Source: Comamonadaceae bacterium | GTDB lineage: Bacteria; Pseudomonadota; Gammaproteobacteria; Burkholderiales; Burkholderiaceae_C | Assembly (NCBI GenBank): GCA_027486555.1 | Contig: JAIXOX010000013.1 | Location: 44,330-108,329, forward strand | DNA length: 64,000 bases | Direction of reading: 5' to 3' | Shown here: in pieces, positions 1-6,209 of the stretch | How positions within the stretch are numbered: the stretch's first letter is position 1 | Layout of the letters: the number at the start of each line of letters is the position of its first letter | Made by a program: the position numbers and the translations under genes | The notes under the pieces: generated by a model | Seen by the model: the letters and a program-made list of their open reading frames with translations, nothing else | Told to the model about the DNA's origin: nothing | The model's database searches: none

Positions 1-102
1 AGAAACGGCGGCCTGACTGACGCTGCGGCATTCCGCCACCTTCAGAAAGGCGGCCAGCATGTCGGTGGAGATGGGGCGTAACTGCCGTTCGGATGTGCTC
101 AT
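1..102 (-). CDS. LysR-family transcriptional regulator, N-terminal fragment
   Basis: Only the first 34 codons lie in the window; the gene continues past base 1. The minus-strand reading starts MSTSERQLRPISTDMLAAFL and continues into KVAECRSVSQAAVS, which is the typical start of a LysR winged helix-turn-helix (a helix of the form LxxFxxVAExxSxxxAA). The gene is divergent from the GST/RuBisCO-like operon, the classic arrangement for a LysR protein that controls its neighbour. Too short for the ORF track. The family is fairly certain from the helix pattern; the effector is unknown. Confidence 0.75.
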   Translation of the reverse strand, partial: MSTSERQLRPISTDMLAAFLKVAECRSVSQAAVS

Positions 103-214: not shown

Positions 215-859
215 ATGAAAATTCACGCAGACCCGATCACCGTCAATTGCAAAAAAGTGCTGGCAGGATTGCAGCTGATGGGTGCCCCCTACGAGTTGGT
301 GCACGTTGACTACTTCAAGGGGGAGCAAAAACTGGAACCCTTTGTCAGTCTGAACCCCAACGCGTCTTTGCCAGCCATGGTCGACGGCGATTTGGAGCTC
401 TGGGAGTCCAACGCCATCTTGCAGTACGCGGCAGACAAAACAGGCCACGCATCATCGTACCCCCAGGATTTGAAAACCCGTGCCGACATCAACCGCTGGT
501 TGCTGTGGGAGTCTTCCAGCTGGTTTCCAAGCTGTTATGTCTTCCTGGTGGAAAACTGCGTCAAGCCACTGCTGGGCGGCGCGCCTGACCCGGAAGTTCT
601 GGCGGCGCAGGAGGCTCAGTTTCACAAGCTGGCGGGTATTTTGGACCAACGCCTGGCATCCAGCCGCTGGGTGTGTGGTGACCAAGTCACCATTGCAGAC
701 ATCGCCTTGGCTGCCCCCTTGCATTTGCACGGTTGGCAAAAGTTGCCTTTGGGCCCCCACAAAAACCTGTCACGCTGGCTGCTGCAAGACATCGAGGCCT
801 TGCCTTGCTGGCAGAACACCATGGTGTACGAAGGCTTCACCACCCAAAAAACGAATTGA
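215..859 (+). CDS. Glutathione S-transferase family protein
   Basis: A 214-residue protein with the two-domain GST layout. The N-terminal thioredoxin-like part carries the signature around NPNASLPAMVDGDLELWES, where the cis-Pro and the following acidic/Ser pair would bind glutathione. The C-terminal helical part holds the GDQVTIADIAL motif (helix-6 N-capping box). The start follows GGAGACAAC with good spacing. It is the first gene of the plus-strand operon divergent from LysR. GSTs in catabolic operons often open epoxides, isomerise or dehalogenate substrates; which applies here cannot be told. The family call is secure. Confidence 0.88.
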   Translation: MKIHADPITVNCKKVLAGLQLMGAPYELVHVDYFKGEQKLEPFVSLNPNASLPAMVDGDLELWESNAILQYAADKTGHASSYPQDLKTRADINRWLLWESSSWFPSCYVFLVENCVKPLLGGAPDPEVLAAQEAQFHKLAGILDQRLASSRWVCGDQVTIADIALAAPLHLHGWQKLPLGPHKNLSRWLLQDIEALPCWQNTMVYEGFTTQKTN

Positions 860-867
860 CATCACCC

Positions 868-1686
868 ATGACCGATTTGCACGCCGTCCGCGCGACTCTG
901 AATTACTCCGAGGACAACGGCCAACCGCCGGATTATTATTTTTACGAACCCGACCCGAGCGTGAAGATCAATCCGCCGGGGACGGACGTGCATGAGGTGG
1001 CCATTCACGATGCTTGGCCTTTGCGACATGACATCCGTCTGGACAAGGAGGGCTTTGAGTTGCATGACTTTGACCCCTCCTTCAAGGACTTTGCCGACGA
1101 AGCGAAGGTCAAGCAGCTGTTCTATCAGCAGGTGGTGGATTTTGTGAAGGCCCACACCGGGGCCAAGCGGGTGGAGGTTTTTGACCACACCATCCGGCAG
1201 CGCTTGCCCGCCGATCTGAAGCAGCAAACCGAGATCCAAAGGCCCGCTGTCTTGTTGGTTCACAGCGATTACACGGTCAAGAGTGGGCCGCAAAGGGTCC
1301 ACGACATACTGCCCGATGACGCCCCGCAGCTGCTGCAAGGCCGGGTGGCTTTTTACAACGTGTGGAAGCCGCTGTACCAACGGGTTGAAGAGTTGCCCTT
1401 GGCCATGTGTGATGCCTCGACACACGACGAGGGCGACATGCTGCGCATGGAGCTCAAGTACCTGGACAGAACGGGTGAAATTTACGTGATGCGGCATTCT
1501 CCCAAACACCGCTGGATGTTTTTTCCATTCATGGAGGCCCACCACGCCTTGTTGCTCAAAACCTATGACTCGGCCACCGATGGTCGCTGCCGGTTCATGG
1601 GGCATTCGGCTTTTGAGCACCCCGATACCGCGCCTGACGCCCTCAAACGCGAAAGCATCGAAGTGCGCACGATGGCGTTTTTCTGA
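868..1686 (+). CDS. CmcJ/NvfI-family oxidoreductase
   Basis: A 272-residue protein. The start at 868 (MTDLHAVRATLNYSEDNG) is chosen over the ORF-track start because it lies 8 bases after the GST stop and the family begins with this kind of 'RATLNY' strand. Recognisable blocks are FDHTIRQR, VHSDYT, FYNVWKPL, RWMFFPFMEAHHALLLKTYD and GHSAFEHPDT. This order is shared with the family of CmcJ (cephamycin methoxylation) and NvfI/AsaB-like fungal enzymes. HSD plus the later GHSAF histidine could form an Fe(II) site as in 2-oxoglutarate oxygenases, but that is inference. The substrate is unknown; co-transcription with GST and the RuBisCO-like protein suggests a role in the same pathway. Confidence 0.72.
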   Translation: MTDLHAVRATLNYSEDNGQPPDYYFYEPDPSVKINPPGTDVHEVAIHDAWPLRHDIRLDKEGFELHDFDPSFKDFADEAKVKQLFYQQVVDFVKAHTGAKRVEVFDHTIRQRLPADLKQQTEIQRPAVLLVHSDYTVKSGPQRVHDILPDDAPQLLQGRVAFYNVWKPLYQRVEELPLAMCDASTHDEGDMLRMELKYLDRTGEIYVMRHSPKHRWMFFPFMEAHHALLLKTYDSATDGRCRFMGHSAFEHPDTAPDALKRESIEVRTMAFF

Positions 1687-1758: not shown

Positions 1759-3027
1759 ATGAGCCAGCCTGGTGCGCGTTCCGAATTCACAGCCCGGTAT
1801 TTCGTTGAAAGCACGGTGCCCTCCGACAAAGTGGCCGAAATCATTGCCGGAGAGCAGTCCAGTGGCACCTTTGTCACCTTGCCGGGCGAAACCGCGCAAT
1901 TGAAAGAGCGCTCGCGTGCCCGGGTCACCCGTGTGCTGCCGATGTCGGCCAGCGCGCAGCCCACGCTGCACAGTGCTGTGCTGCAGCGCCAGGGGCTGAA
2001 CAGGCCTTTTGAGCGGGCCGAAATCGAGATTGCGTTTCCGGTGGACAACGTGGGGGCCAATTTGCCTTCGCTCTTGGCCACGGTGGCGGGCAATTTGTTT
2101 GAGCTCGGTGAGGTCACGGCTTTGCGCTTGCTCGATCTGGATTTGTCGCCTGCTTATGCCGCAGAGTTTCAGGGGCCTGCGTTTGGCATCGAGGGCACGC
2201 GCCAGTTGGCGGGTGTGCACGGGCGACCCTTGGTGGGCACGATCGTCAAACCCAGCATTGGCTTGAGTGCCGAGCAAACGGCGCAGTTGGTGGATTCGCT
2301 GTGCGCTGCGGGGATTGATTTCATCAAGGACGATGAATTGATGGCCAATGCGCCTTACGAGCCGTTTGCTGCGCGGCTGGCGGCGGTGATGCCGGTGCTG
2401 CACCGCCATGCCGATCGTTTGGGGCGCATGCCGATGTATGCCTTCAATGTGTCAGGCTCGATCGATGACATGCTCCGCCAAAGCGATGCTGTGGCGGTTG
2501 CCGGCGGCACCTGTGTCATGGTCAGCGTCAATTGGGTGGGTTTTGCCGGGGTGGAGCATTTGCGCAAGAACACCGCTTTGCCCATTCATGGCCACCGCAA
2601 TGGTTGGGGCGCCTTGACGCGCCACCCCGGCTTGGGGTTTTCTTTTGCGGCCTACCAAAAGTTGTGGCGGCTGGCGGGGGTGGACCATTTGCATGTGAAT
2701 GGCCCCAGCAGCAAATTTTGGGAGCCCGATGCGTCGGTGTTTGCCAATGCGCAGGACTGCTTGCGTCCGTTTGCAGGCTTGCTGCCTTTGATGCCTGTTT
2801 TTTCTTCTGGTCAGTGGGCCGGGTTGGCCCCGGAAATTTACCGACAGCTGGCCTCTTGCGACCTGATGCATTTGGCTGGTGGGGGCATCATTGGCCACCC
2901 CGATGGCACCGCCGCCGGTGTGCAAAGCATGCGCCAGGCTTGGGAGGCGGCCGTTGCGGGTGTGGACCTGCAGCAGGCCGCCGTCAGTCACAGCGCTTTG
3001 GCCCGGGCTTTGTCGCATTTTGGGTGA
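1759..3027 (+). CDS. RuBisCO-like protein (form IV type), possible OiaX-like decarboxylase
   Basis: A 422-residue homologue of the RuBisCO large subunit. By spinach numbering the sequence keeps K175 (K164 in GTIVKPSIGLS), the metal-site K201/D203/E204 (FIKDDE, 190-193), H294-R295 (H279-R280), H327 (H312), K334 (K319) and S379 (S349). It has Ser in place of K177 and FWEPD in place of the loop-6 LEGE region. It is therefore unlikely to fix CO2 but could still perform metal-dependent enolisation or decarboxylation. The next gene, 8 bases downstream, is a DUF1537 kinase. That pair matches the established 3-oxo-isoapionate kinase (OiaK)/3-oxo-isoapionate-4-phosphate decarboxylase (OiaX) pair. The exact substrate is inferred, not shown. 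Confidence 0.88.
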   Translation: MSQPGARSEFTARYFVESTVPSDKVAEIIAGEQSSGTFVTLPGETAQLKERSRARVTRVLPMSASAQPTLHSAVLQRQGLNRPFERAEIEIAFPVDNVGANLPSLLATVAGNLFELGEVTALRLLDLDLSPAYAAEFQGPAFGIEGTRQLAGVHGRPLVGTIVKPSIGLSAEQTAQLVDSLCAAGIDFIKDDELMANAPYEPFAARLAAVMPVLHRHADRLGRMPMYAFNVSGSIDDMLRQSDAVAVAGGTCVMVSVNWVGFAGVEHLRKNTALPIHGHRNGWGALTRHPGLGFSFAAYQKLWRLAGVDHLHVNGPSSKFWEPDASVFANAQDCLRPFAGLLPLMPVFSSGQWAGLAPEIYRQLASCDLMHLAGGGIIGHPDGTAAGVQSMRQAWEAAVAGVDLQQAAVSHSALARALSHFG

Positions 3028-3035
3028 GCTGACGC

Positions 3036-4448
3036 ATGACTGAACCCACACCCACACCAGCCAACGCCATGCGGCTGGCTTTTTATGGCGACGATTTCAC
3101 AGGCTCGACCGATGCGCTGGAGGTACTGAGCTTTGCGGGGCTTCGTTGCGCCTTGTTTTTGCAGGTGCCCAGTGCGGCCTTGCTCGAGGCCTTGGGGCCG
3201 TTTGACGCCGTGGGCGTTGCCGGTCACAGCCGCGCCATGAGCCCGGAAGAAATGGACGAGCAGTTGCCGCCTGTTTTGGCCGCTTTGGCCCGGTTGCCGG
3301 TGCCCTTGGTGCATTACAAGGTGTGCTCGACTTTTGACAGCCATCCCGATGTGGGCAGCATCGGGCATGTGATGGATTTGGCGCGCCAGGCCTTTGGTCC
3401 CGGGGTGATTCCGGTGGTGGCGGCCAACCCGGCCTTGGCCCGTTATTGCGTTTTTGGGCACTTGTTTGCGCGTTCGGCAACAGATGGCCAGGTGCATCGA
3501 ATTGACCGCCATCCCATCATGCGTGTGCATCCTGTGACGCCCATGACCGAGTCTGACCTGGCCAAGCATCTGTCCATGCAAACGCGCCAAACGGTGGCGG
3601 GTGTCACGCTGCCCGTTTTTGAGCGGTCTGAGGCGCAACAAGATGCCGAGGTGGACGCCTTGCTGGCGTCGTCCTGCGAGGCTTTGCTGTTCGATGGCAC
3701 CCGGCCGGAACACCTGACGGCCACCGGGCGGCATTTGTCGCGTTTGTCGGCTTTGAGCCCGGGGCCGATGTTTGCAGTGGGCTCCTCGGGCCTGGAGTAC
3801 GCCCTGACGCAATGGTGGCGTCAAGGTTCCCATACGCCATGGCCTGCGCAGGCCGCGTCTTTTGAAGGGTTTGCGGACGTTCCTCAGGTGTTGGTGGTGT
3901 CGGCCAGTGCTTCGGCCTTGAGCGCGCAGCAGGTCGATGTGGCCGTGCAGGCGGGCTTTGCCGAGGTGGCTTTGGATGTGTGTGCATGGCTCACGCAGCG
4001 CGAGCTGGCCTTGGCGGACATGGCCCAAGTGATCGTGTCGGCTTGGCACAGCGGGCGCAGCGTGGTGGTGCACACGGCGCGCGGCACGGGGGATGCGCGC
4101 TTCGCTCAATTGCGCGAGCGTTTGATGGCCTCGGGGCTGTCTCAGGCGCAGGCTGCGCTGCAAGGCGGGCGTTTGGTGGGCGAGTGCTTGGGTGAGTTGA
4201 CCGAGCGGGTGTTGCAAACCGTGGAGGTGCGACGTTTGCTGCTGTCGGGTGGCGACACATCGAGCGCCATCATGCAGCGGCTGGGCCCGCAGGCTTTGCA
4301 GGTGCTGGCACGCTTGGCGCCGGGTGCGCCTTTGTGCAAGCTCTTGTCCGACAAGCCCCATTTGCGCCAGCTCGAGGTCGCCTTGAAAGGCGGTCAAATG
4401 GGGTCGGCTGATTTTTTTGTCCAGGCTTTAAGGGGGCGCGAGGTTTGA
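3036..4448 (+). CDS. Four-carbon acid sugar kinase family protein (DUF1537), OiaK-like
   Basis: A 470-residue protein with the family hallmarks: the N-terminal substrate-domain motif YGDDFTGSTDA (about residues 17-27), and near the C-terminus the nucleotide-domain motifs LLLSGGDTSSAI and LKGGQMGSADFF. Members phosphorylate 3-oxo or hydroxy sugar acids (DtnK, LtnK, OtnK, OiaK). Its 8-base spacing after the RuBisCO-like gene argues that its phosphorylated product is the substrate of that protein, as in isoapionate catabolism. Full length for the family. A later in-frame Met (MRLAFYGDD) is possible, but the first ATG gives conventional operon spacing. Family certain; substrate inferred. Confidence 0.88.
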   Translation: MTEPTPTPANAMRLAFYGDDFTGSTDALEVLSFAGLRCALFLQVPSAALLEALGPFDAVGVAGHSRAMSPEEMDEQLPPVLAALARLPVPLVHYKVCSTFDSHPDVGSIGHVMDLARQAFGPGVIPVVAANPALARYCVFGHLFARSATDGQVHRIDRHPIMRVHPVTPMTESDLAKHLSMQTRQTVAGVTLPVFERSEAQQDAEVDALLASSCEALLFDGTRPEHLTATGRHLSRLSALSPGPMFAVGSSGLEYALTQWWRQGSHTPWPAQAASFEGFADVPQVLVVSASASALSAQQVDVAVQAGFAEVALDVCAWLTQRELALADMAQVIVSAWHSGRSVVVHTARGTGDARFAQLRERLMASGLSQAQAALQGGRLVGECLGELTERVLQTVEVRRLLLSGGDTSSAIMQRLGPQALQVLARLAPGAPLCKLLSDKPHLRQLEVALKGGQMGSADFFVQALRGREV

Positions 4449-4504
4449 ACGCGGTTGCCGCGGTCGAACTGGGTGTTCTGTTGGCCAATGAATAGAGGGT
4501 GTGT

Positions 4505-5278
4505 ATGACGTTGTCAGCTTCAAATGGGCGTGTGGCCCTGGTGACCGGTGGGGCCAAAGGGATTGGCGCTGAAGTGGGTCATGCTTTGGCCGCCAAGGGG
4601 TTCAAGGTTTGGGTGGCCGACAAAGATGTACAAAGTGCACAGGCTTGGGCGGCAGCGCTGCAACAGCAAGGGGGGCAAGCCCAAGCCGTGTTGCTGGATG
4701 TGGCCGATCCGGCCTCGGTGGCGCAGGTGTTTGCGGCCGTGGAGGCGCAAGATGGGCGCTGTGATGTGCTGGTCAACAGTGCTGGCATCGCCAAGGTTTT
4801 CCCCTTCCTAGATTTCCCTTTGGACAACTTCGTAGCCACCATGGCGGTCAATGTGACGGGGACTTTGCTGTGCGCCCAACACGCCGCCCGGCTGATGTTG
4901 CCTCAGCGTTGGGGTCGCATTGTGAACATCGCTTCGGTGGCGGGTTTGCGGGCGGTGGGCAAGGGGCGAACGGCCTATGGCACCTCCAAAGGGGCGGTGG
5001 TGGCCTTGACCCGGCAAATGGCGGTGGAGTTGGCCGAGCATGGCATCACGGCCAATGCGGTGTGCCCCGGACCGGTGGACACGCCCATGACGCGCGAGTT
5101 GCACTCCGAGCAGTTTCGCGTCGAATACGCCAAGGCCATTCCCATGGCGCGGTATGGCCTGACCAGCGAGATTGCGGCGGCGGTGATGTACCTGGTGTCT
5201 GATGAAGCCAGCTATACCACGGGTGTGGCTTTGCCGGTCGATGGCGGTTTCATGTCGGCCGGTGCGCCAGGCTTGTGA
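4505..5278 (+). CDS. SDR-family NAD(P)-dependent oxidoreductase
   Basis: A 257-residue classical short-chain dehydrogenase. Visible are the cofactor motif TGGAKGIG (14-21), an acidic residue after strand 2 (VADKD, suggesting NAD rather than NADP), NSAG (91-94), and the catalytic S144, Y158 and K162 (YGTSK). PGPVDTPM follows. The ATG at 4505 is preferred to the GTG used by the ORF track because AGAGGG lies 5 bases upstream. It sits 56 bases after the kinase in the same operon, so it probably oxidises or reduces a hydroxyl of the same carbon skeleton. Substrate unknown. Confidence 0.9.
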   Translation: MTLSASNGRVALVTGGAKGIGAEVGHALAAKGFKVWVADKDVQSAQAWAAALQQQGGQAQAVLLDVADPASVAQVFAAVEAQDGRCDVLVNSAGIAKVFPFLDFPLDNFVATMAVNVTGTLLCAQHAARLMLPQRWGRIVNIASVAGLRAVGKGRTAYGTSKGAVVALTRQMAVELAEHGITANAVCPGPVDTPMTRELHSEQFRVEYAKAIPMARYGLTSEIAAAVMYLVSDEASYTTGVALPVDGGFMSAGAPGL

Positions 5279-5318: not shown

Positions 5319-6209
5319 ATGCCGCCTGATATGAAGTTTGTGGATACCGATGTGTTGCGCATCGGCTACCAAGAGTGGAACCCGAGCGCCCAGCGCTCGG
5401 TGATTTTGTTGCACGGTTGGCCCGACAGTGTGCGCACTTGGTCGGGGGTGACGCCTTTGCTGGCAGAACAAGGCTGGCGTGTGGTGGTGCCAGCCTTGCG
5501 TGGGTTTTCGCCCACACGGTTTTTGCACCCTGAGACGCCGCGCAGTGGGCAGATTTCTGCCTTGGGTCGCGATGTGCTCGATTTGATCGAGCGGCTGCAC
5601 TTGAATCAACCGGCTTTGGTGGGCCATGACTGGGGTGCCCGTGCGGCCGCCAGCGCTTGTGCTTTGCGGCCGGGCGTGGCCAGCCACTTGGTCATGATGT
5701 CGGTGGCCTATGGCACCAATTTGCCCTCGCAAAATCTGTCGCTGACGCAGGTGCGCAACTATTGGTACCACTGGTTCATGGCCACGCCCCGGGGGCAACG
5801 TGAGGTGCGTGAGCGGGGGACTGCCTTTGCCAAAATCATGTGGGACACCTGGTCGCCAGCCGGTTGGTATGACGATCAGGAATTCGAGGCCACGGCCGAA
5901 GTGTTTGCCAACGAAGACTGGCCAGAGGTGACGCTTCACTCTTACCAGCACCGCTGGGGGCACGCCCCGGGCGATCCGCGTTATGCCGCCGAAGAAGAAG
6001 CTTTGAGCCGTGTCTTGCCCCTGGATGTGCCCACTTTGATGTTGCATGGCGGCGTGGATGGCGTGAACCCTGCGTCAACATCCGAGGGGCAAGCACCGCT
6101 TTTTCTCAACCGGTATGAACGCAAGGTGCTGCCCGCGTGTGGGCATTTTCCGCAGCGTGAAGACCCTCTACAAGTGGCCCAAGAACTGATCCGGTTTTTG
6201 TCTGCCTGA
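5319..6209 (+). CDS. Alpha/beta hydrolase, epoxide hydrolase-like
   Basis: A 296-residue alpha/beta hydrolase with an Asp nucleophile rather than Ser: GHDWGA at 102-107 (D104). The oxyanion-hole motif HGWPDS (32-37) and a C-terminal catalytic His in CGHFPQRED complete the pattern seen in epoxide hydrolases and haloalkane dehalogenases. HGWP favours the epoxide-hydrolase branch. The start follows AAGGAGTGACAG. It is the last gene of the RuBisCO-like operon. Hydrolysis of an epoxide or lactone as an entry step is plausible but not shown. Downstream bases 6210-6325 hold nothing recognisable. Confidence 0.85.
   Translation: MPPDMKFVDTDVLRIGYQEWNPSAQRSVILLHGWPDSVRTWSGVTPLLAEQGWRVVVPALRGFSPTRFLHPETPRSGQISALGRDVLDLIERLHLNQPALVGHDWGARAAASACALRPGVASHLVMMSVAYGTNLPSQNLSLTQVRNYWYHWFMATPRGQREVRERGTAFAKIMWDTWSPAGWYDDQEFEATAEVFANEDWPEVTLHSYQHRWGHAPGDPRYAAEEEALSRVLPLDVPTLMLHGGVDGVNPASTSEGQAPLFLNRYERKVLPACGHFPQREDPLQVAQELIRFLSA

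Follow-up and report, generated by a model that had tools for sequence, protein, structure and literature searches.

The window, by which is meant the whole stretch of 64,000 nucleotides analysed here, carries a gene for a RuBisCO-like protein (RLP) within a run of genes on the same strand (Table 1). The RLP reading frame is complete, with an ATG start and a stop at 3025-3027, and the 422-residue product matches the Pfam families RuBisCO_large (E=5e-70) and RuBisCO_large_N (E=1e-8). The gene of an acid-sugar kinase starts 9 bases past the RLP gene. The nearest curated family to this kinase is NCBIfam OiaK, on which it scores 393 bits, below the cut-off of 700.

Table 1. Genes at the RLP locus, in window coordinates
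Feature	Position	Strand	Evidence or remark
LysR-type regulator, divergent, 5' part	1..102	-	runs past window start; full gene L111:9155-10102
Glutathione S-transferase-like (GST) protein	215..859	+	first of same-strand run; Pfam GST_N/GST_C
CmcJ/NvfI-family oxidoreductase	868..1686	+	NF041278, 273.7 bits, over cut-off
RuBisCO-like protein, 422 aa	1759..3027	+	Ser at K177 position; loop 6 KFWEPD
DUF1537 (SBD_N + NBD_C) acid-sugar kinase, OiaK-like	3036..4448	+	Pfam PF07005, PF17042
SDR dehydrogenase	4499..5278	+	PRK07231, 219.8 bits, above cut-off 215
Alpha/beta hydrolase, possible lactonase	5319..6209	+	Pfam Abhydrolase_1

Among 42 close loci, whose RLPs are at least 63% identical, the kinase gene lies beside the RLP gene in 40, and one of the two others (L037) ends within the RLP gene. 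Orthologues of the window SDR (65-97%) are found near most of the RLPs of this close clade, and the alpha/beta hydrolase gene lies near the SDR gene in six close loci. Besides the SDR, the recurrent genes at close loci are those of a TRAP transporter (about two thirds of the loci) and a LysR regulator; a zinc-type alcohol dehydrogenase and an aldehyde dehydrogenase are added at some Paraburkholderia/Caballeronia loci. This gene content suggests that the locus serves the catabolism of a carboxylate or sugar taken up from outside, and not CO2 fixation. The GST and CmcJ/NvfI genes upstream of the RLP gene are confined to the Limnohabitans lineage (L002-L004, L006 and the window genome), and their part in the module is uncertain. 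Further upstream, outside the window, a homoserine-dehydrogenase-related oxidoreductase and an amidohydrolase related to L-fucono-1,5-lactonase are encoded at L111:126-2589, a gene pair that is found near the RLP only in the window genome.

Active site and predicted fold of the RLP

The residues of the RLP were numbered after Rubisco by a HMMER alignment to solved structures and a MAFFT alignment with the genuine Rubiscos L143, L148 and L149. The carbamate/Mg triad is retained as K190, D192 and E193 (K201, D203 and E204 in Rubisco), and so are K164 (K175), H279 (H294), R280 (R295), H312 (H327), K319 (K334) and S350 (S379). In the N-domain, E32, T37 and N112 correspond to E60, T65 and N123. Two positions are changed: S166 stands at K177 and W283 at H298. 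The Rubisco numbers are used below.

A preceding sequence-only reading had assigned the triad, K175, H294, H327, K334 and S379, together with a Ser at K177 and FWEPD after K334. The alignments agree with every one of these assignments; E60, T65, N123 and R295, which are kept as well, were absent from its list. That reading had named a Lys at 177 as one of the observations that would speak against it, and none aligns there. The alignment is free of gaps around K175-x-K177, so that Ser177 is assigned in a part of it that is not in doubt. From H327 to K334 the alignment is likewise gap-free, and the HxGTVVGKLEG of Rubisco loop 6 is replaced by HVNGPSSKFWEPD, with K334 itself retained. The loop-6 motif had been described as lost; more aptly, the protein has KFWEPD, the loop-6 motif of its own family. 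A true Rubisco is ruled out by Ser177 and the lack of a GxxGKLEG loop 6. With its carbamate/Mg site intact, the protein is expected to be an activated metal enzyme, as had been proposed.

An AlphaFold model of the RLP, calculated from 41 aligned family sequences, has a mean pLDDT of 93 and a pTM of 0.91, and loop 6 is predicted well. This is the structure prediction that the earlier reading had asked for, and the fold, predicted with high confidence, can be laid over that of a solved RLP: the top match in the PDB is 3nwr, a Burkholderia RLP (TM 0.92, rmsd 1.4 A), followed by an archaeal Rubisco, the Chlorobium RLP and MtnW.

The kinase-linked family and its accompanying enzymes

RLP loci were sampled from 84,980 species genomes (80 loci) and from the host family (about 30), with further loci from plasmids and Pseudomonadota genomes, and 99 RLPs were read for residues. 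Ser177 and a K-F-x-E loop are common to nearly all of about 85 relatives in many phyla; among the 99 RLPs they are the rule in Burkholderiales, Rhizobiales, Acidobacteria, Verrucomicrobia, Gemmatimonadota, Bacteroidota and Bacillota. Being shared across the surveyed relatives, Ser177 and KFWEPD are a trait of the family and not peculiar to the window gene. As far as the aligned sequences tell, the entire family of kinase-linked RLPs lacks the Lys at 177 and has a loop-6 motif of its own. Asn177 and GKFxQxD mark a sister group, which includes 3nwr, an Azospirillum RLP (L117) and several members from the host family. Asn177 also occurs in a Paenibacillus RLP (L070) and in that of the haloarchaeal Natronosalvus plasmid L116, where the RLP-kinase pair lies beside VOC, cupin, SDR and racemase-family genes. 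A literature search on K177 and loop 6 in form IV RLPs gave no matches.

The window RLP has the fold, the carbamate/Mg triad, the non-Lys residue at 177 and the kinase neighbour of a form IV, DUF1537-kinase-linked RLP. The nearest characterised members of this family act in apiose breakdown. OiaX- and OiaT-type activities, decarboxylation and transcarboxylation/hydrolysis of 3-oxo-isoapionate-4-phosphate, are cited for RLPs of Xanthobacter and Agrobacterium (PMC6302742). OiaX (NF042437, 3-oxo-isoapionate-4-phosphate decarboxylase; Carter et al. 2018) is the best-scoring curated family for the window RLP, which reaches 457 bits where the cut-off is 700; true OiaX proteins reach 772-786 bits on the same model. 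True OiaX proteins also have Asp60, Gly123, Ala177, Gln327 and the loop KYWEPD, where the window RLP has E60, N123, S177, H327 and KFWEPD. Membership in OiaX is ruled out by the score and by the lack of D60, G123, A177 and Q327.

In a tree with Rubisco as the root, OiaX falls within the Ser177 family as a long branch, adjoining ApnO-linked members of Acidobacteria, Verrucomicrobia and Gemmatimonadota. If this placement is not a long-branch artefact, OiaX would have arisen by simplification, with loss of E60, N123 and H327, and the more complete, Rubisco-like active site would be the older state in the Ser177 group. One genome holds both kinds of protein: a second RLP, of the Ser177 type (L151:1673-2968, minus strand), is encoded about 16 kb from an OiaX and is followed by a second ApnO-like gene (L151:782-1642, minus strand), 51% identical to the first, and by a sugar-isomerase-like gene.

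Enzymes of three kinds are encoded with the RLP-kinase pair, often by the gene directly adjoining it: the SDR (30 close-clade loci), ApnO (21 loci, 5 of them in the close clade) and a protein of the Asp/Glu-racemase family (22 distant loci). The name ApnO is presumed from the place of the gene in OiaX loci and from the apiose pathway; RLPs with the same active site as that of the window adjoin an orthologue, 46-72% identical, of this ApnO-type gene from OiaX loci. Within the close clade, SDR and ApnO tend to be mutually exclusive (SDR only 30, ApnO only 4, both 1, neither 5; Fisher p=0.006, uncorrected for relatedness), and four of the ApnO loci form one subclade of the tree. No position of the RLP separates the ApnO-linked from the SDR-linked members of this clade. 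Judging from these sequences, the two kinds of RLP therefore probably act on identical or closely similar substrates.

The Asp/Glu-racemase-family gene follows the RLP-kinase pairs of Bacteroidota and of some Verrucomicrobiota/Planctomycetota (L046, L049, L050, L063, L067, L069, L074, L119 and others). In Rufibacter (L119) these three genes lie among pectin-degradation genes. A solved relative of the racemase-family protein was not found by sequence, and the protein may represent a third way to make the substrate of the RLP-kinase pair.

A search of the window genome, which is 92% complete, for ApnO gave only one match of 22 bits over 74 residues; the positive controls scored 350-512 bits. ApnO was not found either in the genomes holding three Limnohabitans-type relatives, searched in the same way with the same controls. 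The query was an ApnO homologue, as the PGDH_C profile matched none of the controls. Because ApnO is absent, the apiose route itself is ruled out in the window genome, and for the same reason the window RLP is proposed to be fed by the SDR. This SDR-fed version is a variant for which no described function was found, within a family that is widespread and partly known.

Possible reactions of the RLP

The partner of the RLP is a kinase of four-carbon or branched acid sugars, and the nearest curated family to the RLP itself is OiaX; a substrate other than RuBP, as earlier supposed, is therefore indicated. The further supposition, that the protein simply enolises this substrate, is not supported. 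The term enolase is too narrow for a protein that lies in an acid-sugar catabolism neighbourhood and whose nearest relatives of known activity are decarboxylases or transcarboxylases/hydrolases of a 3-oxo sugar-acid phosphate.

Rubisco uses E60, N123, H327 and K334 after enolisation, and all four are kept here. As to the products, 3-phosphoglycerate would need pyruvate kinase and enolase, and erythrulose phosphate would need the enzymes of the OiaX locus. About seven lineages have pyruvate kinase and/or enolase genes in the vicinity of the RLP (Bradyrhizobium, Microvirga, Azohydromonas, Noviherbaspirillum, Paraburkholderia/Caballeronia, Pseudomonas and Cupriavidus). The OiaX locus L150 encodes TIM-like, RpiB-like and EryB-like enzymes, and these are absent near the RLPs of the family, save for one RpiB-like match (L077). 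Taken together, these neighbourhoods fit 3-phosphoglycerate better than erythrulose phosphate. In the window locus neither pyruvate kinase nor enolase is encoded beside the RLP, and a glycolate oxidase profile found FAD-oxidase relatives in the window genome, none above the cut-off. The four retained residues and the pyruvate kinase and enolase genes of the relatives suggest that a C-C bond is broken once the enediolate has formed, perhaps with a transfer of CO2 within the active site, and for these reasons a reaction of the OiaT type is favoured. The RLP would then be a transcarboxylase/hydrolase that turns a phosphorylated branched 3-oxo sugar acid into 3-phosphoglycerate and glycolate, a reading to which, by analogy with OiaT, a probability of about 0.45 is given.

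By combining what the sequences give directly, namely the fold, the active-site residues, the kinase partnership, the position in the family and the absence of ApnO, it is possible to propose a substrate, a role for the SDR and a course of the reaction. The alpha/beta hydrolase would perhaps open a lactone first. The SDR would oxidise the branched sugar acid to a 2-hydroxy-3-oxo acid, and the DUF1537 kinase would phosphorylate the terminal hydroxyl of the latter. The carbamylated, Mg-bound RLP would act last, on a substrate that resembles the six-carbon intermediate of Rubisco. It would decarboxylate this substrate to an enediolate, return the CO2 at the neighbouring carbon, and then hydrate and cleave the product to 3-phosphoglycerate and glycolate, as OiaT is reported to do with 3-oxo-isoapionate-4-phosphate. 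This sketch and the identity of ApnO follow the work of Carter et al. 2018, in which OiaT of Xanthobacter is reported to turn 3-oxo-isoapionate-4-phosphate into 3-phosphoglycerate and glycolate.

A simpler, OiaX-like reaction would only remove CO2 from the phosphorylated 3-oxo acid and leave a ketose phosphate. It would need fewer residues, OiaX is the top curated family, and KFWEPD is nearly the KYWEPD of OiaX. However, the score on the OiaX model is far below its cut-off, OiaX differs at E60, N123, K177 (Ala) and H327 and forms a separate long branch inside the family, and the isomerases that use its product almost never lie near the family RLPs, which together make simple decarboxylation rather unlikely. 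Oxygenation is also conceivable, as in the D-hamamelose pathway of Ochrobactrum, where a pentulose phosphate and O2 would give 3-phosphoglycerate and glycolate. An RLP oxygenase in D-hamamelose breakdown is cited in PMC10176493, and its products, 3-phosphoglycerate and glycolate, are cited in PMC8914248 (from Kim et al. 2018). The SDR would then be the sugar dehydrogenase and the alpha/beta hydrolase the lactonase, so that with the kinase and the RLP the set would fit, and the pyruvate kinase and enolase genes of the relatives match the product. Against this, ApnO, the maker of a 3-oxo acid, is the neighbour of RLPs that share this active site, and an oxygenase is judged improbable.

A pure enolase or isomerase of the MtnW or Rhodospirillum RLP kind would agree with the retained carbamate/Mg site and the loss of K177, and other RLPs do enolise only. 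The constant partner of the RLP, however, is an acid-sugar kinase, and the MtnW families score 165-197 bits against cut-offs of 513.6 and 409, which rules out the methionine-salvage enolase itself and leaves enolisation alone very improbable. No methionine-salvage genes were found among the scanned RLP neighbours.

The transcarboxylase/hydrolase reading can be extended, more tentatively, to the family. The RLP, although it lacks K177, would run the whole carboxylation-hydration-cleavage sequence on CO2 that it recycles internally, as part of an SDR-fed pathway not described before; the RLP-kinase core would be fed interchangeably by the SDR, ApnO or the Asp/Glu-racemase-family protein, and OiaX would have arisen within this family by losing E60, N123 and H327.

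The host is a Limnohabitans-type freshwater bacterium, and most likely its RLP and kinase break down a branched sugar acid by the chemistry of RuBisCO. Numerous RLPs whose only annotation is 'ribulose-bisphosphate carboxylase large subunit family protein' are thereby tied to a testable pathway, and such genes should not be counted as CO2 fixation genes. Set against OiaX, these RLPs provide a natural experiment that separates those of the Rubisco residues E60, N123, H327, K334 and K177 on which carboxylation and cleavage depend from those required for decarboxylation alone.

Comparison with known systems

The RLP shares with Rubisco forms I-III the fold, the carbamate/Mg site, K175, E60, T65, N123, H294, R295, H327, K334 and S379, but it is only about 30% identical to them and has Ser177, Trp298 and its own loop 6. 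The solved Burkholderia fungorum RLP 3nwr, whose function is not stated, is the best match by both structure and sequence (48% identity), yet with Asn at 177 and the loop GKFAQSD it belongs to the sister group. OiaX resembles the window RLP in the carbamate/Mg triad, the non-Lys residue at 177 and the K-[FY]-W-E-P-D loop 6. An OiaK-type kinase adjoins OiaX, and the kinase that adjoins the window RLP is OiaK-like but scores below the OiaK cut-off. The two RLPs are 42-44% identical, and OiaX loci carry ApnO/ApnL or erythrulose-phosphate enzymes where the window locus carries an SDR.

Two further systems are likened by description and not by sequence. The D-hamamelose RLP oxygenase has in common with the proposed pathway the catabolism of a branched sugar and the products 3-phosphoglycerate and glycolate. 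OiaT likewise combines an RLP with a kinase, and it is expected to need the Rubisco residues that are kept here. Its probable relatives sit with ApnO; the OiaT pathway differs in this from the window genome, in which the SDR would take that place.
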